From a virus, in IMG/VR virus record IMGVR_UViG_3300006802_000575, positions 1 to 23,823 of that record: a stretch of 23,823 bases of DNA, one strand, 5' to 3'. How positions within the stretch are numbered: the stretch's first letter is position 1; every line of letters begins with the position of its first letter. This document shows positions 2,632 through 20,434 of this stretch, piece after piece. The translations under genes were made by a program, and so were the position numbers. The notes below the pieces were generated by a model that searched no databases, was not told where the DNA came from, and was given only the letters and a program-made list of their open reading frames with translations.

Positions 2632-3123
2632 ATGGGAAGTTATAAAACCAATAAACAAGTATTAAAAAAATTAACTGTTGAAGAAGCACAAGCCTTTATT
2701 CCGGTTACTATGGAAAATTCTGATGAGTTAGAAAATGCTTATTTTTATACTATGGTACCTATGGGTAATGGTTGGGATGAGATAAATTATTATACTAATC
2801 GACCTGTTCAACATTGGAGAACAGGACCTTATAATGGTTGGATTTATATTTTGTCTAATAGAACAATGCCTGGTCTATTTAAAATAGGACATACTAAAAA
2901 TAATCCTGAGGATCGTGCTAAAGAAATTTCACGTGCAACTGGTGTCCCTATTCCGTTTGAAATTGAATGGGCATTTAATTGTTATGATTCTGATATGTTA
3001 GAGAAAGAAATTCATAGAGCTCTAGACTCGTTTAGATATACATCAAATAAAGAATTTTTTGAAATATCTTTAAATGAGGCAAAAGAAACTATAAGAAAGC
3101 TTGGCTCTGCATATAGGAGTTAG
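2632..3123 (+). CDS. T5orf172 / MUG113 (GIY-YIG superfamily) domain protein
   Basis: Residues about 66-160 form a T5orf172-type domain, a GIY-YIG relative common in phages. They start GWIYILSNRTMPGLFKIG, followed by R (ERA.E/DRAKEISRATG), then an E.EIH.AL helix and an end NKEFFEIS. The Y-I-L and K-I-G strands replace the GIY and YIG motifs, and the arginine in DRAKEIS and glutamate in EKEIH take the catalytic-type positions. The first 65 residues are a separate, unrecognised N-terminal part rich in polar residues. Unlike the gene at 342 it has no NUMOD repeats, so a homing role is not shown; a nuclease or DNA-binding role is inferred. It starts 62 bases after the DUF932 gene, and an element of the recurrent motif follows its stop directly. 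Confidence 0.75.
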   Translation: MGSYKTNKQVLKKLTVEEAQAFIPVTMENSDELENAYFYTMVPMGNGWDEINYYTNRPVQHWRTGPYNGWIYILSNRTMPGLFKIGHTKNNPEDRAKEISRATGVPIPFEIEWAFNCYDSDMLEKEIHRALDSFRYTSNKEFFEISLNEAKETIRKLGSAYRS

Positions 3124-4215: not shown

Positions 4216-6105
4216 ATGAAAAAAATCCTTTTTTTCCTATTTTTCCTTACCTCTGTAATCTCAGTAAGTGCTAAAACATTACCTGCTCCTGGAACTGGAG
4301 TTTATGTATTAATTGATACTAACTATACTGTAAGTACTTCTTTAAATCCTACAACTACTGCTAGCTTATATTATACTAATAGTACTGCTACTTTAGTTAC
4401 AGGTATGCAGTTTAGAGTATTTTATGATAAGGTAGCATTTAATGGTGCTGCTCCTACAGTCGCTTTAAAATATCCTAGTACCGATCAAAATCTTCAATAC
4501 AACGTTAATACGACTGATGGTTATATTACTATAACCTTGGTTTATACTGGTTCTAACGCTACTTTTAATTACGTTAATAGCGAATTAGTAGCTATCACAT
4601 TTACACACGCTATTGCTTCTACATTTAATAGTTTAGCTAGTATTTCTCCTTTAACTGTAACTGGTGTTCAAACATTTCCTGCTTTTGCTTCTAAAAATAC
4701 AGGTATGGACACAACATTAAATTTATATAGTTATGGTGGTAATTTTTTAAGACCTACATTCTTATTCACTTCTACATTTACTAATGTAACAGGTACAGGA
4801 GCTAAAAATGTTACTATTAAATTATCTAAAAAACCTAAAACTGGATCTACTTGGACTACAATTGGAACTTATACTTCTGATTTAGATGGTATTGTATCTG
4901 TTAATCCGGTTATTGACACTACATTTTGGGATATTAAGTTTGCAGTTCAAGGTGATACAATGAATGTAGGTAAAATTATTTCAGTAGCCGATGCTCAAAA
5001 AGTAAACCAATTCGTATTAGGCACAGCTACTCCTTCAGGATTTGATTTCTATACAGCCGATGTTAATAACTCAAATACTATCTCAATATCAGACGTTTAT
5101 TCTATATTTGGTAGAATCGCAGGCCGATTCTCAGTATGGCCTAATAACACTCCAGATGTAAGATTCTTTACAGCAACTGAATATAATTCAATTAATGGTT
5201 CATCTACAAGTTTAAAATCAACTATACCAGGTGTTACTAATTTTGAGTATTATATTAATGGTACTTCAGTAGTAACTTATTATATTGCTGGTTTAGGAGA
5301 TGCTAATGGTACTGGTTTTAAAATGGCTAGATTAGTTCCTATCCAAATATTAAACCCAAATAACGCTCCTAATTATATTATAGATCAAACAGTAGAATAT
5401 TATGCTAGTTTAAATGAAATTGAAATTAATTTACCTAGTTTAAATGTTGTTGAAGGTAATTTAGTTAATATTCCAGTTAAAGTATTTACAAATGAAGATT
5501 TAGGTTCATTACAATTAGCAATGAAATATGATAAAGATTTATTAGAATTTAAAGGTTTATACACAGATGAAAAACCAATGACTTGGTTATCATTCTTAAA
5601 CGCTAATGATGGTATTGTAGAATGGGGTGGTATAGACATGTCTAATAATAAATTTAACTTAAAAAATAATGAACAAGTTGTTACATTACAATTTTTAGCT
5701 AAAAAACCTAAAGATGAGTGGTCAGCGAGTCCTTTATATGTATCACAAAAATATGTAGGTAATGCTAATGCTTCTGATTTAAATATTAGGCCTACAGATG
5801 GTAGAATTCAAATTCAAAGAGCAATGAATACAGTTGCCTTTAATCCAAATGAAGCTACTATAACTGTATTTCCTAACCCAACAGGTGGTTTAGTTACAGT
5901 ACAATTCAATATACCTAAAGATGGTATTACAACAGTTGCTATTGTAGATATGCAAGGTAATGTTAGAAGAGAAATATTAAGCGGCAAAGTACCTGCAGGA
6001 GCTTATCAGTACGCTGTTAATTTAGATACTATGGCTCCAGGAATGTACTTAGCAGTATTAGAAAACAATGGAAAGGTTATATCAAATAAAACAATTTTAA
6101 ACTAA
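4216..6105 (+). CDS. Type IX secretion cargo with cohesin-like and dockerin-like modules
   Basis: This protein would be exported across the inner membrane, then across the outer membrane by the host type IX secretion system, and anchored or released at the cell surface. It has a signal peptide (1-19, cut after SVSA); a cohesin-like beta domain (about 28-150) with MQFRVFYD; a beta domain (175-245); a dockerin-like pair of helices, VADAQKVNQFVLG (257-269) and ADVNNSNTISISDVYSIFGR (281-300); a linker; a second cohesin-like domain (about 400-535) with SLQLAMKYDKDLLEFKG; and a T9SS type A sorting domain (about 546-629) with VFPNPTGG, G-NV and a final KTILN. The family assignment of the C-terminus (TIGR04183-like) is strong; the cohesin and dockerin calls are by pattern. 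It opens the cassette before the lysis genes. No catalytic domain is visible, so adhesion or scaffolding is inferred. The sorting domain points to a T9SS-bearing Bacteroidota host. Confidence 0.82.
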   Translation: MKKILFFLFFLTSVISVSAKTLPAPGTGVYVLIDTNYTVSTSLNPTTTASLYYTNSTATLVTGMQFRVFYDKVAFNGAAPTVALKYPSTDQNLQYNVNTTDGYITITLVYTGSNATFNYVNSELVAITFTHAIASTFNSLASISPLTVTGVQTFPAFASKNTGMDTTLNLYSYGGNFLRPTFLFTSTFTNVTGTGAKNVTIKLSKKPKTGSTWTTIGTYTSDLDGIVSVNPVIDTTFWDIKFAVQGDTMNVGKIISVADAQKVNQFVLGTATPSGFDFYTADVNNSNTISISDVYSIFGRIAGRFSVWPNNTPDVRFFTATEYNSINGSSTSLKSTIPGVTNFEYYINGTSVVTYYIAGLGDANGTGFKMARLVPIQILNPNNAPNYIIDQTVEYYASLNEIEINLPSLNVVEGNLVNIPVKVFTNEDLGSLQLAMKYDKDLLEFKGLYTDEKPMTWLSFLNANDGIVEWGGIDMSNNKFNLKNNEQVVTLQFLAKKPKDEWSASPLYVSQKYVGNANASDLNIRPTDGRIQIQRAMNTVAFNPNEATITVFPNPTGGLVTVQFNIPKDGITTVAIVDMQGNVRREILSGKVPAGAYQYAVNLDTMAPGMYLAVLENNGKVISNKTILN

Positions 6106-6115
6106 TAAATTAAAC

Positions 6116-6469
6116 ATGGCAAAATTAAAAGAAATCCTAGGATTAGGAGAAACAGAATTCAAGAAAGTAGATGATAAAAATCGTTTCTACTTTATGTTAC
6201 AACAAATGCAAACTAACCGTTGGAAAATTACAGGTATTGTATTATTTTTATTTTTCTTTATTATCTTTGGAATTAACATGGCTGTATTTTTAAATGTTTC
6301 TATTCAAGAGTCTTGGAAAGAAATGTTACTTATCCTTTTAGGTGCCTTTGTAGGTAACTTAAATAAAGTAGTAGACTACTGGTTTAACTCAGAAGATAGA
6401 GACAAAATGTTAATCCAAAAAGTAGACGAAGAAGACGGAAAATCATTATCAAACACTATAACTCAATAA
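6116..6469 (+). CDS. Two-TM membrane protein, holin-like
   Basis: The 117-residue protein has a cytoplasmic N-terminal part (1-34), two hydrophobic segments (about 37-60, ITGIVLFLFFFIIFGINMAV, and about 69-85, EMLLILLGAFVGNL), and a charged tail that starts VVDYWFNSEDRDKM. Two membrane segments joined by a short loop with a charged C-terminus match many phage holins, and a short LLLGAFVG helix followed by a YWF motif is common in them. It lies 10 bases after the T9SS cargo and 4 bases before the next membrane protein, in the same run as the M15 endolysin. Holin is inferred from topology and context. It could instead be an inner-membrane part of the secretion cassette. Confidence 0.6.
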   Translation: MAKLKEILGLGETEFKKVDDKNRFYFMLQQMQTNRWKITGIVLFLFFFIIFGINMAVFLNVSIQESWKEMLLILLGAFVGNLNKVVDYWFNSEDRDKMLIQKVDEEDGKSLSNTITQ

Positions 6470-6473
6470 TAAT

Positions 6474-6764
6474 ATGTCAGAAGAAGAAACACAAGAATCA
6501 ACCTGGACAGGATTGAAGAAAACAATCATTGGAACCTTAGCCACTGTAGTTACAGCAGGTGGCGCTTGGATTGGTACAACTTTGTTTGGTGGTGAAGAGG
6601 CAGCTCCAGCTCCTGTTCAAGCAGCACCTACAATTAATATTACTCAACAAGCAGCTCCAGCAGCAGTACCTGTTAATAACACTACTATCATTCATGAGAA
6701 GACAGTAGAAAAAGCAGCTCCTGCTCCTAAAGAAGAACCTAAAAAAGAAGAACAACCTTGGTAA
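6474..6764 (+). CDS. Single-TM protein with an Ala/Pro-rich periplasmic tail, unknown
   Basis: The 96-residue protein has an acidic N-terminus, one membrane segment (about 17-38, TIIGTLATVVTAGGAWIG) and then a low-complexity region of Ala, Pro, Gln and Val ending in KEEPKKEEQPW. The layout resembles a short TonB-like or spanin-like periplasmic linker: an anchor and an extended, Pro-rich arm. No TonB C-terminal fold is present. It overlaps the CsgG-like gene by one base (TAATG), so the two are probably made together. An inner-membrane spanin role beside a holin-like gene, or an energy or anchoring link for the pore next door, are both possible. The function is unknown. Confidence 0.6.
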   Translation: MSEEETQESTWTGLKKTIIGTLATVVTAGGAWIGTTLFGGEEAAPAPVQAAPTINITQQAAPAAVPVNNTTIIHEKTVEKAAPAPKEEPKKEEQPW

Positions 6765-7516
6765 TGAAAAGTTTTTGGAATAAATACAAACACTTCATTA
6801 TTACAGTATTAGGATTAATGCTACTCACTACATTAGCTATGAACGCTAATGCTCAAGTGGGTAGCGTTAAAACTGAAAAATATCAGGCTGACTTTGAAAA
6901 GAAACAATCTATTGAATTAGTTGCTGATTATAATGGTCCTGTTATTCCTATTCAGATCTTAAAAATTGGAATTAATGAAGAACTATTCGAGATGTATCCT
7001 GAATTAAAGGATAAGCGAGTAGGTTTAGGTGTTACTAATATTGTACTTGAATATTTAGAATATACTAATCGTTTTGAATTTACAGAAGATAAATTAGAAA
7101 TCAAAGAAAAAATGATTGCTCAATTTAAAGCTTCTAATAAAGGATTTACAGAAAATAAAATAGACGGTAAAGGTAAAATTAAGTTAGCCCGTTACTTTGT
7201 TTATATTGAAGTATATGATTTTTCAGTAGCTGAAAATGAAATATTTGACATTCAAAAAGGTAAAAGCTATTCTCGTATAGATCAAACAACTACATTAGGT
7301 TTACAAGTTAGATTTGTAGACGCTCAATCAGGAGAAGTAATTGTTGGGTCTGGTTTAGGAGAAGCTGTTACTGTTAAAGAATCTACTATGTTAGGTAATA
7401 TTGATGAAGTTAAATTTAATCAATCAACAATTGGTATTACTACTAAAAAATCACTTGAAACCGCATCATCTCGTATTGTGAGTAAACTTATTAAAAAAGG
7501 TGTATTTCCACAATGA
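6764..7516 (+). CDS. CsgG-family outer-membrane secretion protein
   Basis: CsgG proteins form the nonameric outer-membrane channel that exports curli subunits. From the ATG at 6764 the protein is 250 residues (a TTG six bases earlier is less likely because the ATG overlaps the previous stop as TAATG). Signal peptide 1-30 ends AMNANA. The CsgG-like body shows the early strand-helix part with KRVGLGVTNIVLEYLEYTNR (84-103), a grown-strand region ARYFVYIEVYDF (142-153), the strand TLGLQVRFVDAQSGEVIV (177-194), GLGEA (197-201) and a long C-terminal helix ending IVSKLIKKG. Length and order fit the family. Curli CsgG is a lipoprotein, but there is no cysteine at the cleavage site here, so it may be soluble in the periplasm or anchored differently. 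It overlaps the next gene by ATGA. No CsgA-like repeat subunit is visible nearby. Confidence 0.75.
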   Translation: MKSFWNKYKHFIITVLGLMLLTTLAMNANAQVGSVKTEKYQADFEKKQSIELVADYNGPVIPIQILKIGINEELFEMYPELKDKRVGLGVTNIVLEYLEYTNRFEFTEDKLEIKEKMIAQFKASNKGFTENKIDGKGKIKLARYFVYIEVYDFSVAENEIFDIQKGKSYSRIDQTTTLGLQVRFVDAQSGEVIVGSGLGEAVTVKESTMLGNIDEVKFNQSTIGITTKKSLETASSRIVSKLIKKGVFPQ

Positions 7517-8754
7517 AAAAATTTATAGTACTATTAGTTTTATTACTGCCCTTAGCTGTATTAGGCCAAAGTACTGTAAACTATTCATATAGTGATCCTT
7601 GTACTGGTAAAGTAAAAAATCTTACTTTTCAAGATAATCAAACTATTACTGTTAATTATTTAGGTTATATTCAAGCTTTTGATTTTAATCAAATTAATAA
7701 TGGTGAACTTGAGACTTGGATTAATGGAGTAGCAAGACAAAATACTTCTAGCCCGTGTGCCGCTGCTACTACTGTTGTTACTACTGCAACTAATTTAGCT
7801 ATAACTAATAATATTATATCTACTTTAACTAATGTCACCTCAGTGGCTACATCTGTAGGTTCAAGTTTAGCCTCAGCTATTCCTATGCCTTCAACTCCAT
7901 CATCTCCTTCTTCTACACCTTCATCTAGTACACCTTCAAGTAAAAAATTAGAAGGAGGTGAAACAAACGATAATGCAACAGAAGAATCTACACCTACTAC
8001 CACAACTACTGAAGGTGGATCAGATAATACAGGAGGATCAATTAGTAATTCAGTTGAAGGCACATCAAGTGAAGGAGGAAACTCAGGTGGAGGTGGTGGA
8101 AAAAGTACAGCTAAAGCTAAAGAAGCTAAAACTAATACTGGTAGTTTAATTGGATCAGGTGATATTGTTGTAACTAATAATAGAAATGATAATACAAATA
8201 ACTTAAGAATGACAGCTAGTATGACTAAGTCAAACTATAAAAATACATTTGCTAAAGGTTTCTTATTTAATTTTACTACTCAACTTAATAACTCTAACCT
8301 TACATTTTATACTGCTTCTACTAAGAAAAAATCTACACTTATATTTGCTAATTCAAGTTTAGTAAATAAAGACTATGATATATTTAATACTACTACAGCT
8401 ATAGAATCTTATCGATTTGGTAAGTTTTCAGCTATGGGAGGAGTTAATTTTACTTTAGGAAAAATAGGTACTAAAGGATTTCAAAATTTATCATCAGTTG
8501 CAGGAGGTTTCTATTTATTCCCGGTGAATAAGAATATAACAGGTAATTTTTTATTATTAAGTGTTTATTCTCCATTTACTCAATTTTATGATGGTAGATG
8601 GTGGAATAGTGGTTTATTGTTAGTACCGTTTAGTTCTTGGGATTTTAAAGTAACTAAAACATTTAAATTTAATATTAGTTTCTCAGGAGTATATGAATTA
8701 AATAAAAGTATGTTAAATTACCAGATATTAACTGGTGGAAAAATAATGCTATGA
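7513..8754 (+). CDS. Secreted protein with Ser/Thr/Gly linker and probable outer-membrane beta-barrel
   Basis: The 413-residue protein has a signal peptide (1-18, ending LAVLG) and a small N-terminal beta domain with two cysteines (C30, C82). Next comes a long low-complexity region (about 125-215) of Pro, Ser, Thr, Gly and Glu with a GGGGG run. The C-terminal part (about 230-413) has alternating hydrophobic and polar strands, rich in aromatic residues, such as KFSAMGGVNFTLGKIG and FKFNISFSGVYEL, as in a small outer-membrane barrel. It overlaps the CsgG-like gene by ATGA and the next gene by ATGA, so production is likely coupled. I recognise no named family; it is not an evident CsgE or CsgF. 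A role as partner, anchor or cargo of the CsgG-like channel is inferred from order alone. Confidence 0.6.
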   Translation: MKKFIVLLVLLLPLAVLGQSTVNYSYSDPCTGKVKNLTFQDNQTITVNYLGYIQAFDFNQINNGELETWINGVARQNTSSPCAAATTVVTTATNLAITNNIISTLTNVTSVATSVGSSLASAIPMPSTPSSPSSTPSSSTPSSKKLEGGETNDNATEESTPTTTTTEGGSDNTGGSISNSVEGTSSEGGNSGGGGGKSTAKAKEAKTNTGSLIGSGDIVVTNNRNDNTNNLRMTASMTKSNYKNTFAKGFLFNFTTQLNNSNLTFYTASTKKKSTLIFANSSLVNKDYDIFNTTTAIESYRFGKFSAMGGVNFTLGKIGTKGFQNLSSVAGGFYLFPVNKNITGNFLLLSVYSPFTQFYDGRWWNSGLLLVPFSSWDFKVTKTFKFNISFSGVYELNKSMLNYQILTGGKIML

Positions 8755-10007
8755 GATATTTGCTAATATTACTATTATTACCTTTAAATTTATTAGCACA
8801 AAATTTTTCATATTCAGGATATGTTTATAATGCTGATAATACAGGGGCACTTAATGTTCCTATAAAGTTGTATGCTAGAACATCTAATGTAGCGGCGGTA
8901 GTTCAAAACTCTGAACAATTTGGAGTGTCTAATGGTTCAGCTTGGTTAACTAAAAATACATATAGTGGTACTCCAAATAATAGCACAACATATAACTATA
9001 GTACAACTAATGCTTTTACAATCACTACATCAGCAGGATCAGCTACTATAGCTCCATTTACTTCTAATATCCCTGCTAATAGAAATAGAGGTACATCTGT
9101 TTTATTTTCATCACTTAATTCAGATGAAGGTTCAGTAATTATAACATTTCCTTCAGGATTTACTCCTTCTTTTTTAGGCACTACTTATTCTAGTGGTCAT
9201 ATAAATACTAATTCATGGTTCACATTTGGAACTAATAGTAGTTCAGGATATAGTGGTACTGCTTCAAATCCTAATGCACCCACACTGCATATAGGATCTG
9301 TAAGTAATAGTACTACAGATAATAATATGTCTTATACTAGTACAGAATCTTACACTGATCCATATTGGGGAGATGTTTTTAGAGTAAGATATGAAGGTAA
9401 TTCTAATTATAGTCAACAAGGTATTAACACTATTTATGACTTATATTTTATAAAAAATCAACCTAATACCCAATTAGTTGTATGGAGACAATTTACAACA
9501 GATGGTTCATCTACCTCAGTAAGTGGGTCACCTCCAGGACCTTGGACTTTAAATACTACATCTATTACTAATTCAACAGGTTATTATTCTTTTAATACAA
9601 GTTTAAATATTTCATCTTATGAATTTTATATTCAAATAGATGTACCTAGTCCTATATCTAATTTAGATAATAATGATATAATTAATACTCTTAAAGTTAT
9701 TAATGGTACTATTCCATTTAATAGTTCTTTTTATTATTTAAATGATGTAAATGGAGATGGAAAAGTTACTGTGTCTGATGCTTATTATATTGGAGCTAAA
9801 AAACAAGGAAGATTTACAACATGGGTAGGAACTTTTACTTCTCGACTATTTACTCCTACAGAATATTCAACAATTAAATCTAATACTTCAAATCTAAAAC
9901 CGACTTATCCCGGCGTATCTTCAATTACTATCTCTAATCCCACAAGTGGCGGTAGTAGTAATTACTATATTATAGCTCCGGGTTATAGCACTAATACAAC
10001 ATTTTAA
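8751..10007 (+). CDS. Secreted beta-rich protein ending in a dockerin-like module
   Basis: The 418-residue protein has a signal peptide (1-16, ending NLLA) and a carboxypeptidase-regulatory or Ig-like start (18-45, YSGYVYNADNTGALNVPIKL). A large beta-rich, Ser/Thr/Asn-rich ectodomain (about 85-300) includes a W-rich section with VVWRQF. The C-terminus has a dockerin-like pair: DNNDIINTLKVINGT (306-320) and NDVNGDGKVTVSDAYYIG (331-348), the latter with the Ca-binding DxNxDGxxxxxD spacing. The part after it (GRF.TW, then LFTPTEY, LKPTYPGV) repeats the same order as the T9SS cargo at 4216, so the two proteins share a module of about 80 residues. It lacks a T9SS sorting domain, so it may reach the surface by the neighbouring CsgG-like channel or by docking. 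Adhesion or assembly is inferred; no enzyme motif is seen. Confidence 0.65.
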   Translation: MRYLLILLLLPLNLLAQNFSYSGYVYNADNTGALNVPIKLYARTSNVAAVVQNSEQFGVSNGSAWLTKNTYSGTPNNSTTYNYSTTNAFTITTSAGSATIAPFTSNIPANRNRGTSVLFSSLNSDEGSVIITFPSGFTPSFLGTTYSSGHINTNSWFTFGTNSSSGYSGTASNPNAPTLHIGSVSNSTTDNNMSYTSTESYTDPYWGDVFRVRYEGNSNYSQQGINTIYDLYFIKNQPNTQLVVWRQFTTDGSSTSVSGSPPGPWTLNTTSITNSTGYYSFNTSLNISSYEFYIQIDVPSPISNLDNNDIINTLKVINGTIPFNSSFYYLNDVNGDGKVTVSDAYYIGAKKQGRFTTWVGTFTSRLFTPTEYSTIKSNTSNLKPTYPGVSSITISNPTSGGSSNYYIIAPGYSTNTTF

Positions 10008-10009
10008 AC

Positions 10010-10462
10010 ATGAAACACCTACTAATCTTTTTATTCTTATTATTACCGTTTACTTTATTAGCAAACGATTGTGTTTACGTTAATCAAATAACTGTAAATA
10101 AAAAATTTAAAGAATTAAACAGCAGAAACATTAAATTTGGTATAAAACAAATTACAGAGGAATTACTATCAGAAAGATATTGTCTGGCGGACTCTTCTAA
10201 CGCTGTTGATATAGAAGTATATTCTATAGGAGCCCCTAAAACCACCATTCGTATTATAGGTGCCTCGTCAATATCTCAAGTTACTCAAATTAGTTTAAAA
10301 GTAACTTATAAAGGAGTAGTATATGAAGGTTTAGGAGAAGCTGAAACTGATGTTAGATCTATGTTTATTGAATTAGAAAATAATGAAGTACCATTTAACA
10401 ACACTACTATATCAATTGCTTTAAAAAGAGCACTTCAAAACGCTATACAAAGGTTACCTTAA
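10010..10462 (+). CDS. Small periplasmic protein resembling the C-terminal part of the CsgG-like protein
   Basis: The 150-residue protein has a signal peptide (1-18, ending FTLLA) and a mature part with alternating strands and helices. Its second half (about 93-148) runs ISLKVTYKGVVYEGLGEA, then EVPFNNTTISIALKRALQNA. This matches by eye the CsgG-like protein at 6764 from LGLQVRFVDAQSGEV through GLGEA to EVKFNQSTIGITTKKSLETA, with similar spacing. It therefore looks like a shortened paralogue without the full channel-forming part. Cysteines at 21 and 58 could form a disulfide. It starts 3 bases after the dockerin-like protein and ends 36 bases before the endolysin. A periplasmic adaptor or accessory to the channel is inferred. 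Confidence 0.6.
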   Translation: MKHLLIFLFLLLPFTLLANDCVYVNQITVNKKFKELNSRNIKFGIKQITEELLSERYCLADSSNAVDIEVYSIGAPKTTIRIIGASSISQVTQISLKVTYKGVVYEGLGEAETDVRSMFIELENNEVPFNNTTISIALKRALQNAIQRLP

Positions 10463-10463
10463 A

Positions 10464-10477
10464 ATATTTATTATTAA
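10464..10477 (+). promoter_or_regulatory. Weak copy of the recurrent motif
   Basis: ATATTTATTATTAA begins two bases after the stop of the small periplasmic protein and 34 bases before the M15 peptidase. It keeps the ATATTTAT core of ATATTTATAAYACG and could give the endolysin its own start of transcription. Confidence 0.3.
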
Positions 10478-10497
10478 ACAACTAAAATCAAAAAATT

Positions 10498-10968
10498 ATG
10501 CAATTATCAAAGTATTTTACACTAGCTGAATTAACTCCTTCGGGAACAGCAAAACGTTTAGGTATTTCAAACAATCCAACTCCTGAACACTTAGAATGTT
10601 TAAAAGGATTAGCGGTTAACGTATTAGACAAAGTAAGAGAACATTTTGGAAAACCAATTTGGGTATCTTCAGGTTACCGATCTAAAGCGTTAAACGAGGT
10701 TACTCCTGGTTCTAGTGCTACATCACAACACTGTACAGGCGAAGCTGCTGACTTGGATCAAGACGGTAGAGGTACAGGTGTAACTAATAAAATGGTGTTT
10801 GATTATATTAAAGATCATTTAAATTTTGATCAATTAATTTATGAGTACGGTACTGATGCTAATCCTGATTGGGTTCATGTTAGCTGGGAATCTACAGGAA
10901 AACAAAGAAAACAAGTATTACGTTGTACTAGAGTAAACGGTAAACCAGTTTACACACCATACAAGTAA
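10498..10968 (+). CDS. Peptidase M15 family endolysin
   Basis: This is a zinc D-Ala-type peptidase (M15_3 group) that would cleave peptidoglycan cross-links at lysis. Nearly the whole 156-residue protein is the domain: a start SKYFTLAELTPSGTA, R61 in SSGYRS, zinc ligands H78 and D85 in SQHCTGEAADLD, catalytic-type E116 in DQLIYEY, and the last ligand H127 in DWVHVSW. All key residues are present. There is no signal peptide, so it needs a holin or membrane change to reach the cell wall; the two-TM protein at 6116 is the nearest candidate. The leader is A-rich (ctaaaatcaaaaaatt). This gene gives the best-defined function in the cassette and fits late expression. Confidence 0.92.
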   Translation: MQLSKYFTLAELTPSGTAKRLGISNNPTPEHLECLKGLAVNVLDKVREHFGKPIWVSSGYRSKALNEVTPGSSATSQHCTGEAADLDQDGRGTGVTNKMVFDYIKDHLNFDQLIYEYGTDANPDWVHVSWESTGKQRKQVLRCTRVNGKPVYTPYK

Positions 10969-12560: not shown

Positions 12561-12827
12561 ATGATATATACAATATTAAGTGCATTGGTTGTGATCCTAG
12601 GGTTCACGACCTTTAACCTTTTAATGAAAAATGAACAAGCAGAAGATATAATTATGTCTCAAGATGAATTTATATCTATACTTACAGATACTATTAATAA
12701 AATAGATAATAAATTAAAACAAATTGATTACAAAGGTTCATTTGAGTCAGATGACGAAATAGGATTCTTTTTTAAAGAAATAAAAAATATACAAGCAACA
12801 CTGAATGAGTTCAATAATAAACGCTAG
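12561..12827 (+). CDS. Small membrane-anchored coiled-coil protein, unknown
   Basis: The 88-residue protein starts with a membrane segment (about 3-20, YTILSALVVILGFTTFNLLM) and continues as a charged helix with heptad spacing (about 24-60, with ISILTDTINKIDNKLKQI) to the end. It would sit in the inner membrane with a cytoplasmic or periplasmic coiled coil. It begins 2 bases after the HD protein and overlaps the sigma-factor gene by 23 bases, so it is expressed with both. No family is recognised. Compact placement and matching codon use support it as a real gene. Confidence 0.68.
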   Translation: MIYTILSALVVILGFTTFNLLMKNEQAEDIIMSQDEFISILTDTINKIDNKLKQIDYKGSFESDDEIGFFFKEIKNIQATLNEFNNKR

Positions 12828-13527
12828 TAATTTACCTAAGAACCCAAGTTCTACTAGGTACTTTACCCAAGATACAGAAGATGCTATTGTTGCTTATAAT
12901 AAGTCTTTAGACTTTGATGAACGTGATAAGATTTATAATAGAAAAATCCATTACGCTTTCTTCAAGTTAACAGAAAATATTATACATACGTTTAAATTTT
13001 ATTATACCGAGGTAGATAATATTGAAGATTTACAACATGAAATTATAACATTTCTATTAAGTAAAATTCATTTATTTGATCCAAGTAAAGGTGCTAAAGC
13101 ATACTCTTACTTTGGTACTATCGTAAAACGATATTTAATTATATCTAATACTAAAAACTATAAAAAACGTATAGATAAAGCGCCAATTGAAGATTTGGAA
13201 CAAGACGAGAAACATTCGTATGAAATCGATGATATCCCGCCTAATGAACGCTTAAATGAGTTCTTAACGCTATATACTGAATATTGTTCTAATAACTTAA
13301 AAACGTTATTTCCCAAAGATGGTGATGCTAAAATAGCTGATGCTATTCTTGAATTATTTCGTAAACGTGAAGTATTAGATATATTTAATAAAAAGGCACT
13401 TTATATATACATTCGTGAAATAATTGATGTGAAGACACCTAAAATTACTAAAATAGCTAATAGATTAGGTGACATATTTAAAGAACATTACTTATTTTAT
13501 ATCGAAAACGGATATACAAATTTCTAA
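12805..13527 (+). CDS. gp55: gp55-like late-transcription sigma factor
   Basis: T4 gp55 replaces the host sigma factor on host RNA polymerase so that it recognises short late promoters. This 240-residue protein shows the same type of core: helix NRKIHYAFFKLTENIIHTFK (45-64), then IEDLQHEIITFLLSKIHLFD (73-92) and the hallmark run PSKGAKAYSYFGTIVKRYLI (93-112), close in pattern to the gp55 stretch in which an FD..K turn precedes an AY-F helix and basic residues. It is longer than T4 gp55 (185 residues), and its C-terminal helices (about 195-235, TPKITKIANRLGDIF) could add a DNA- or clamp-binding part. It is placed just before the baseplate genes, and TATAAATA, the T4 late consensus, lies 11 bases after its stop. 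The start overlaps the previous gene by 23 bases and no later Met is available. Confidence 0.68.
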   Translation: MSSIINASNLPKNPSSTRYFTQDTEDAIVAYNKSLDFDERDKIYNRKIHYAFFKLTENIIHTFKFYYTEVDNIEDLQHEIITFLLSKIHLFDPSKGAKAYSYFGTIVKRYLIISNTKNYKKRIDKAPIEDLEQDEKHSYEIDDIPPNERLNEFLTLYTEYCSNNLKTLFPKDGDAKIADAILELFRKREVLDIFNKKALYIYIREIIDVKTPKITKIANRLGDIFKEHYLFYIENGYTNF

Positions 13528-19860: not shown

Positions 19861-20213
19861 TGGAACAAGTAAATTTAAATAAAACTGTTTTTTTAAAGGA
19901 TCAATATGAAAAAGTTATTGATACTTCATTCACTCAACTAGTTCAGCCTGCTGCTACTAGTTCAGTTGTTCCTCCTTCTATCTCAGTAGCTGAATTTTTT
20001 ACTAATTATCAAACTTTATTTTTTGAAATACCTAAATATGGTAATATAAATTCACATGAATATTTAATTAAAACAAGTCAAGCTTACGCTGGTGATTTTA
20101 ATAATGATGATACTATTCAAGCATTAATTGAAGAAATAACATCATTAAGACAAGAAAATTTGACTTTACAAGAACAAATATTAAATACCACTACAGCTAG
20201 CATTAATCAATAA
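19860..20213 (+). CDS. Small structural protein with C-terminal coiled coil, unknown
   Basis: The 117-residue protein has a beta-like N-terminal part (MEQVNLNKTVFLKDQYEKVI), a Pro/Ser hinge (SSVVPPSISV) and a C-terminal coiled coil (about 83-108, TIQALIEEITSLRQENLTLQ). It overlaps the gene before and the gene after by one base each. An adaptor that trimerises and joins the flanking large structural proteins is plausible from this layout. No family is recognised, and there is no signal peptide or membrane segment. Confidence 0.65.
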   Translation: MEQVNLNKTVFLKDQYEKVIDTSFTQLVQPAATSSVVPPSISVAEFFTNYQTLFFEIPKYGNINSHEYLIKTSQAYAGDFNNDDTIQALIEEITSLRQENLTLQEQILNTTTASINQ

Positions 20214-20434
20214 TGAGTAAAATAGTTAATATACAACCAGTTAATCCTATAACATTTGAATATCAAACATATTCACCTCAGGATGAATCTTTAATATCTA
20301 GTTTTGAAGTCACTAATAATTTTAATGTCTCTTCAAGTTATATAGAATATTTTATTTATGATTTAAATAATACTATTTATATAGTAATGAACTTGGATAT
20401 AATGGTTACTCATTTCAAGGAGCAAATGTATTAA
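20213..20434 (+). CDS. 5' part of a giant baseplate/tail wedge gene, before an apparent frameshift
   Basis: The frame starting at ATG 20213 (overlapping the previous stop as TAATG) reads a beta-rich start, with TFEYQTYSPQDESLISSFEV and SSSYIEYFIYDLNN, but then enters an out-of-frame stretch and stops at 20434. At about 20376 the sense clearly continues in the -1 frame with LYSNELGYNGYSF, which stays open to the window end. Adding a single T to the TTT run at 20376-20378 would join the two frames as NNTILYSNE. A one-base deletion (natural or an assembly error) is therefore the simplest reading, and this should be annotated as one gene with the following entry. Confidence 0.62.
   Translation: MSKIVNIQPVNPITFEYQTYSPQDESLISSFEVTNNFNVSSSYIEYFIYDLNNTIYIVMNLDIMVTHFKEQMY

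Follow-up and report, generated by a model that had tools for sequence, protein, structure and literature searches.

We describe here a family of phage proteins with a predicted CsgG fold, represented by gene D of a 23.8-kb virus record (IMG/VR IMGVR_UViG_3300006802_000575, positions 1-23,823; hereafter the window, by which the whole of this stretch is meant), whose near-constant companions are a cohesin protein with a T9SS sorting domain (A), a predicted outer-membrane barrel (E) and a half-length paralogue of D itself (G). In the best reading of these data, to which we assign a probability of about 40%, D, E, G and the small membrane protein C would constitute an export or assembly complex by which infected cells receive a cohesin-dockerin lectin scaffold. 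The fold and the occurrence of CsgG in phages are already known, while the D family and its module appear to be undescribed: no account of either was found in the open-access literature, which takes in no bioRxiv preprints and only a minority of subscription journals.

The window looks like a segment of a T4-like Bacteroidota phage, the phylum being assigned on the basis of the T9SS domain of A and of an isolate relative, Flavobacterium phage immuto. It contains five tRNAs according to ARAGORN and a gp25-like baseplate protein matched at 8.3e-5, below the cut-off. Genes A to H form a run of eight on the plus strand (4216-10968), separated, in order, by gaps of 10, 4, -1, -4, -4, 2 and 35 bases; the start of D overlaps the stop of C by one base, whereas its own stop overlaps the start of E by four. 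The run ends, after the 35-base gap that follows G, with H (10498-10968; 156 aa), an endolysin of the M15 peptidase type (Pfam Peptidase_M15_3, 3e-17; PHROG 894 endolysin, 5e-35). Upstream of D, gene B (6116-6469; 117 aa) displays two hydrophobic stretches in what its sequence suggests is a holin-like topology, and no family with a named function matched it above cut-off in Pfam, PHROGs or NCBIfam. Gene C (6474-6764; 96 aa) consists of a single N-terminal hydrophobic stretch followed by a tail rich in Pro, Ala, Lys and Glu, with a terminal Trp conserved across a 63-member alignment. In relatives, B or other small proteins with two transmembrane segments (c7 and c26) stand before or after D.

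Gene D is a genuine open reading frame of 250 aa, extending from the ATG at 6764 to a TGA ending at 7516 (an automated listing starts it two codons upstream, from the TTG at 6758). Searches of Pfam, PHROGs, NCBIfam and the sequences of the PDB with the window protein alone gave no convincing match, its sole PHROG match (0.0018) covering residues 7-25 only, and its likeness to CsgG would have stayed unproven from its own sequence; with its relatives taken into account, the likeness holds. Pfam CsgG (PF03783) matched nine of 49 diverse members of the family when E-values up to 10 were admitted, the best at 8.5e-5. At the curated cut-off (20.8 bits) none of seven records passed, the single match reaching 18.4 bits, and D thus lies outside PF03783 at that threshold. 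Profile searches of the PDB with 23 and with 49 relatives found nothing convincing, and the comparison of the D profile with CsgG was not significant, either against a small alignment of the protein from phage HTVC008M and seven from Flavobacterium (E 0.078, probability 0.7%) or against the HTVC008M protein alone (E 0.024, probability 2%).

The AlphaFold2 monomer model of D (mean pLDDT 74, pTM 0.62) comprises strands at residues 61-70, 144-164, 167-186 and 192-207 and helices at 86-100, 110-123 and 220-244. In a Foldseek search of the PDB its top 16 matches were all CsgG chains, from 9.6e-8, followed by PelC (2.1e-6), further CsgG chains, HpaA-type proteins of H. pylori, GNA1162 and LptE. VIA-align gave a Z of 12.3 against CsgG (153 residues aligned at 2.9 A, 180 at 3.9 A), ahead of Cj1090c (11.0), PelC (9.5), LptE (up to 8.9), FlgT (8.5), PelBC (8.2) and TraT (7.2). 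The predicted fold of D is that of CsgG, and the initial annotation, which had recognised a CsgG-like pattern in the letters of the sequence, is borne out by the Pfam hits among relatives and by both structural comparisons; the profile search that it had proposed as a check succeeded weakly for relatives and failed for the window protein alone, with nothing above cut-off. A Pfam scan of genes A to H revealed no CsgA/B, CsgE or CsgF, as had also been stated there.

The same annotation had named D a channel protein, and in this respect the comparison with CsgG points the other way. The motif GG-x-GARYFG at the tip of hairpin 1, invariant in eight of eight aligned CsgG proteins, is absent from D in the joint alignment, and the hairpins of D are clearly more charged, with median charged fractions of 0.33 and 0.32 for hairpins 1 and 2 against 0.20 and 0.16 in CsgG. 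Their best one-face hydropathy is 1.85 and 1.64, compared with 2.41 and 2.08, and a largely conserved acidic run at residues 157-159 places charges on both strand faces. Length does not separate the two families: hairpin 1 measures 20-24 residues across 49 D proteins and 25 in eight CsgG, and the median for hairpin 2 is 19 both in 48 D proteins and in the five of eight CsgG in which landmarks allowed it to be measured. The notion that the hairpins are clearly shorter than those of CsgG was therefore rejected, and the case against a channel is one of charge and motif. Since the hairpins are charged on both faces and the tip motif is missing, a pore of the CsgG type finds no support, and D is read, from its sequence and model, as a probably non-spanning protein of the CsgG fold. 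It is thus very unlikely that D forms a true outer-membrane pore (9-fold, with 36 strands) through which small molecules enter or leak, or an amyloid-like subunit is exported, even though its best fold match is CsgG in both pore and pre-pore forms, its hairpin lengths come close to those of CsgG, and curli modules have been described in pelagiphages (PMC7029224, PMC9599517). Besides charge and motif, the absence of a return strand from hairpin 2 of the monomer model, the presence of a half-length G, which would not fit such a channel, and the separate barrel gene adjoining D all argue against it.

The hydrophobic N-terminus of D, a putative signal peptide of about residues 1-31 (6764-6856, plus strand), ends in ...NANAQ-VGSVKTE, by eye an ordinary-looking signal peptidase I site, and since there is no cysteine among the 250 residues the protein has no lipobox. 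When the D proteins of 188 loci were dereplicated at 95%, the resulting set of 78 revealed that this is a trait of the window lineage and not of the family: 41 carry a lipobox near the position of the signal-peptide end, 11 have another cysteine in the N-terminal region, and 26 have none (two of these, L036 and L038, being N-terminally cut). The earlier description of D as lacking a lipobox therefore stands for the window copy but does not extend to its relatives. In the more distant clade the cysteine directly precedes a GS-x-KT motif, while in the window lineage a plain signal-peptide site precedes the same motif: a single site was involved in the loss or gain of the anchor, with the start of the mature protein nearly unchanged.

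D is more than a chance reading frame, as hundreds of viral contigs encode relatives of it. A scan of viral contigs with the single protein found 37 loci; with the D alignment it found at least 541 relatives in 600 scored stretches, and with a distant member 124 in 136, the best 80 being used in either case. Relatives at 63-73% amino acid identity agreed with the window gene at 31-65% of fourfold-degenerate sites, mostly close to the 48% that base composition would give by chance, so D is old and strongly constrained and does not stem from a recent transfer. The family is nearly confined to phages. A relative was present in three of 42 stretches from a genome collection, all of them contigs of metagenome-assembled genomes (MAGs), one filed as Sphingomonadaceae, which are likely to be binned phage DNA. 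Among 395 Bacteroidota genomes two matched D, one through such a MAG contig and the other through a distant CsgG-like protein (9.3e-5); none of the 395 matched E, in a search that, having no positive control, shows little. Out of 50,697 phage records only four, all of immuto, were matched by A, D, E and G. Among 80 listed loci of the baseplate protein gp6, 19 of the longer records were searched and three of them held D, most of the records being fragments. Of 34 large contigs chosen among those that carry D, 11 were matched by the gp6 of the window, with identities of 20-72%, which indicates that D is common to phages with far-apart baseplates; gp6 is more diverged than D.

Gene A (4216-6105, plus strand; 629 aa) comprises a signal peptide, a weak N-terminal cohesin-like domain (Cohesin, 0.003 with the N-terminal part alone), a dockerin-like stretch, a cohesin (Pfam, 5.1e-6, residues 404-533) and a C-terminal T9SS type A sorting domain (residues 551-627, at 5866-6096; Por_Secre_tail, PF18962, 4.8e-9; TIGR04183 of NCBIfam, 1.4e-9). 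As the latter passes the cut-offs of both PF18962 and TIGR04183, A qualifies as T9SS type A cargo. The domains recur in the A family, for which 25 of 60 dereplicated members were scanned: Por_Secre_tail was found in all 25, Cohesin in 22 and Dockerin_1 in nine. F (8751-10007; 418 aa), likewise preceded by a signal peptide, combines a variable N-terminal part with a dockerin-like C-terminal part. The window copy matched Dockerin_1 at 0.064 only and no lectin in Pfam, while among 25 scanned out of 61 members of its family Lectin_C was found in 13 (best 2.5e-18), Dockerin_1 in eight, laminin-G in three, GEVED in three and PA14 in two. F would thus consist of a dockerin-like end and a changing ligand-binding end; A and F fall in a single similarity cluster, the dockerin-like part being common to both. 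Two immuto proteins, gp014 and gp015, correspond to a split A; the cohesin (5.9e-9) and the sorting domain (2.4e-8) lie in gp015, and the counterpart of F, gp013, carries a lectin (3e-15). The dockerin of gp014 was read by eye, without a Pfam report; a division of A into dockerin and cohesin pieces is as expected of parts that bind each other.

E (7513-8754, plus strand; 413 aa) is predicted by AlphaFold2 (mean pLDDT 67) to contain, after its signal peptide, a small N-terminal domain with two conserved cysteines, a helix (residues 83-114), a disordered linker and a 12-strand barrel (residues 211-412, at 8143-8748), most of the latter modelled above 75. VIA-align matched the model to the NalP translocator (Z 24.9; 229 residues aligned at 3.1 A), KdgM (19.0), NanC (18.6) and FapF (18.2), and no meaningful Pfam match was found among 38 members of the E family. 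Because FapF, porins and autotransporters all match, the predicted 12-strand barrel gives no function for E. FapF and the autotransporter translocators share with it the barrel with a preceding helix; E is set apart from them by its small two-cysteine domain and by the disordered linker that joins the helix to the barrel. G (10010-10462; 150 aa), also with a signal peptide, aligned with residues 121-239 of D at 33% identity (E 8.8e-6), and in the profile comparison of the two families the probability was 96.7% (E 3.7e-10). It is on this evidence a half-length paralogue of D.

These partners accompany D with great regularity. Dereplicated loci that extended for 4.5 kb or more on each side of D numbered 57; among these, A, E and G were each present in 56, C in 48, F in 45 and B in 38, and another lectin-type protein, c15, in ten. 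The next plus-strand gene after D was E in 64 of 78 cases, B in ten and unassigned in four; the gap between D and E had a median of -1 base and was zero or negative in 50 of the 64. The association holds when started from other genes: D and E were found in 70 of 70 loci seeded with A that had 3 kb downstream, and D and A in 62 of 62 seeded with G that had 6.5 kb upstream, although these sets (from 80 loci each) were not dereplicated and partly repeat earlier contigs.

An alternative role, in the step of lysis that opens the outer membrane, constitutes the main rival, although we regard it as rather doubtful. In that case C and D would function as a spanin pair does, E being the outer-membrane target or pore, and the complex would open the outer membrane after the action of holin and endolysin. 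The i-spanin gene precedes the o-spanin gene in spanin pairs, and the order of C and D recalls this arrangement, as do their topologies, an inner-membrane anchor with a periplasmic tail followed by a protein that is a lipoprotein in many relatives. The window operon ends in an endolysin gene, one is found nearby in 36 of the 57 loci (GH19 in 34, M15 in three), and many clade-2 loci present the order c4-A-B-C-D-E-F-G-c7-GH19-holin, in which lysis genes (GH19, 1.3e-9; PF05105 holin, 4.3e-6) adjoin the module. A lytic role was also proposed for the CsgG of phage Melnitz (PMC9004378). However, neither GH19 nor M15 endolysin was found within the flanks examined of the other 21 loci, whereas A, E and G are each found in 56, and the near-constant set is therefore D, E and G with A rather than D with an endolysin. 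Moreover, nearly half of the D relatives have no lipobox, the D model has no long coiled coil like that of spanins, and lysis needs neither variable lectins nor a T9SS-sorted scaffold.

The constancy of the partners also bears on the possibility that D itself is a surface or periplasmic exclusion factor comparable to TraT of plasmids, with A and F as mere companions. D is highly conserved, it has a lipobox in many relatives, and TraT decamers are among its structural matches. Nevertheless, the Z of 7.2 falls within the range that the tool's own note ascribes to common arrangements, CsgG and PelC match better, and D has its partners beside it at nearly every locus examined, all of which makes this explanation unlikely.

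We prefer export and assembly by D, E, G and C, with A and F as the exported proteins, because it is the simplest account that uses every part. It builds on what the computations support, namely the fold of D, the barrel of E, the paralogy of D and G, the T9SS and cohesin domains of A, the lectin and dockerin of F relatives, the operon and the co-occurrence of its genes. D would be an envelope subunit of the CsgG/PelC fold, exported by its signal peptide to the periplasm, where it would lie against the inner face of the outer membrane. There we infer that it forms a ring, with a probable lipid anchor in some half of the relatives though not in the window copy, and that, having no membrane span of its own, it docks on the periplasmic side of the barrel of E. 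G may act as an adaptor, and C, with its single transmembrane segment and its extended tail in the periplasm, may tie the assembly to the inner membrane. The resulting complex would export or assemble phage surface proteins: A would leave through the host T9SS and be anchored by its sorting domain, and F, of lectin type and without such a domain, would be brought out as a substrate, its dockerin docking on the cohesins of A. Before lysis, a cohesin-dockerin lectin scaffold would in this way come to cover the infected cell. The phage would probably gain by masking receptors, either for superinfection exclusion or to keep progeny off debris, or by holding neighbouring cells together. The suggestion in the initial annotation of a ring adapted by the phage for export or lysis suits this setting, in which D adjoins a predicted outer-membrane barrel and the operon closes with an endolysin. 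Against the preferred reading, dockerin matches are weak or absent in most members scanned of the A and F families, and the proximity of endolysin and holin genes fits lysis equally well.

Several known systems resemble parts of this module. With CsgG (PF03783; PDB 4uv2, 6l7a, 7brm), D shares the overall predicted fold, size and signal peptide and, in part of the family, the lipobox. It differs in falling below the Pfam cut-off, in its charged hairpins without the tip motif, in the lack of a lipobox in the window copy, and in a locus that has no CsgA/B/E/F and places it beside a separate barrel. PelC (PDB 5t0z, 5t10), PelBC (9h80) and the LptE of LptDE have a CsgG-like fold as well, and D may share with them the company of an outer-membrane barrel. 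Both PelC and LptE are accessory proteins of outer-membrane barrels. D is larger, sequence searches found no match between it and these proteins, and no Pel or Lpt genes were recognised among A to H. As to cellular CsgG, PF03783 was matched over cut-off in 23 of 101 Flavobacterium genomes, and the Flavobacterium proteins (L197-L211), some 460 aa long, continue after the CsgG domain into an additional C-terminal domain that resembles a barrel; that this domain is a fused E found no support (hhalign E 0.5).

CsgG proteins encoded by phages, with CsgF, are described in reports on pelagimyophages (PMC7029224), pelagipodophages (PMC9599517) and the methylophage Melnitz (PMC9004378), in which export, adhesion or lysis is proposed as their role. 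The first of these presents them as a puzzle still to be solved in pelagiphages, the hosts of which are difficult to manipulate (PMC7029224). D has in common with these modules a phage-encoded protein of the CsgG fold, as predicted from its model. The CsgG of HTVC008M, in contrast to D, has a lipobox-like cysteine and the motif GGVGARYFG, with CsgF annotated beside it, and the hosts of these phages are Proteobacteria. A tblastn search with the HTVC008M protein matched 16 phage records, none of them of Flavobacterium. For A, the parallel is provided by Cryophage, in which T9SS type A sorting domains are carried by phage proteins, two enzymes and a PA14 protein, encoded among variable genes (PMC7468147); the cargo A differs in being a cohesin protein that has D and E beside it in all A-seeded loci.

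We tentatively consider it possible that many large phages of Bacteroidota encode an envelope-spanning machine for secretion or display, with D as a ring of the CsgG/PelC fold, G as a half-length adaptor, E as a barrel like those of FapF or autotransporters and C as inner-membrane link, that works together with the host T9SS in building cohesin-dockerin scaffolds with swappable lectins. If so, it would represent a phage-made lectin scaffold of a kind for which no description was found, in which the swapping of lectins would testify to an arms race for receptors or neighbours. The data suggest that exploitation of the host T9SS is widespread among phages of Bacteroidota and not a single case. 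With a CsgG-fold family of their own in these phages, carried by one isolate set (Flavobacterium phage immuto), the question of what phages do with CsgG-like proteins becomes directly testable, and the near-constant partners lead to clear predictions, namely a barrel partner, T9SS dependence and lectin on the cell surface.

Further genes were observed in and around the module. A small secreted protein with an HExxH motif, c4, occurs in 37 of the 57 loci (e.g. L018, 9693-10157) and was not found in the window; its weak SprT-like match (0.021, L018) would be compatible with a zinc peptidase accompanying the module. A secreted DNA/RNA non-specific endonuclease (PF01223) lies in or near the module in seven of the 57 loci (e.g. 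L077, 6072-6656, matched at 2.9e-25, and L001, 8190-8768). Elsewhere in the window, Rfam reports a sixth tRNA at 166-250 (37.1 bits), without an ARAGORN report, and upstream of the tRNA cluster lie a NUMOD-containing protein (342-1022), probably a homing endonuclease, and a protein with a T5orf172 domain (2632-3123). A weak match to sigma-70 region 2 at 12805-13527 (6e-4, below cut-off) may indicate a phage sigma factor. Finally, a gene of the baseplate or tail region is apparently broken: the reading frame at 20213-20434 ends while an overlapping frame, open from 20371 onward, continues into the one listed from 21493, which exits the window, and the break appears to be a frameshift, either programmed or due to a sequencing error.
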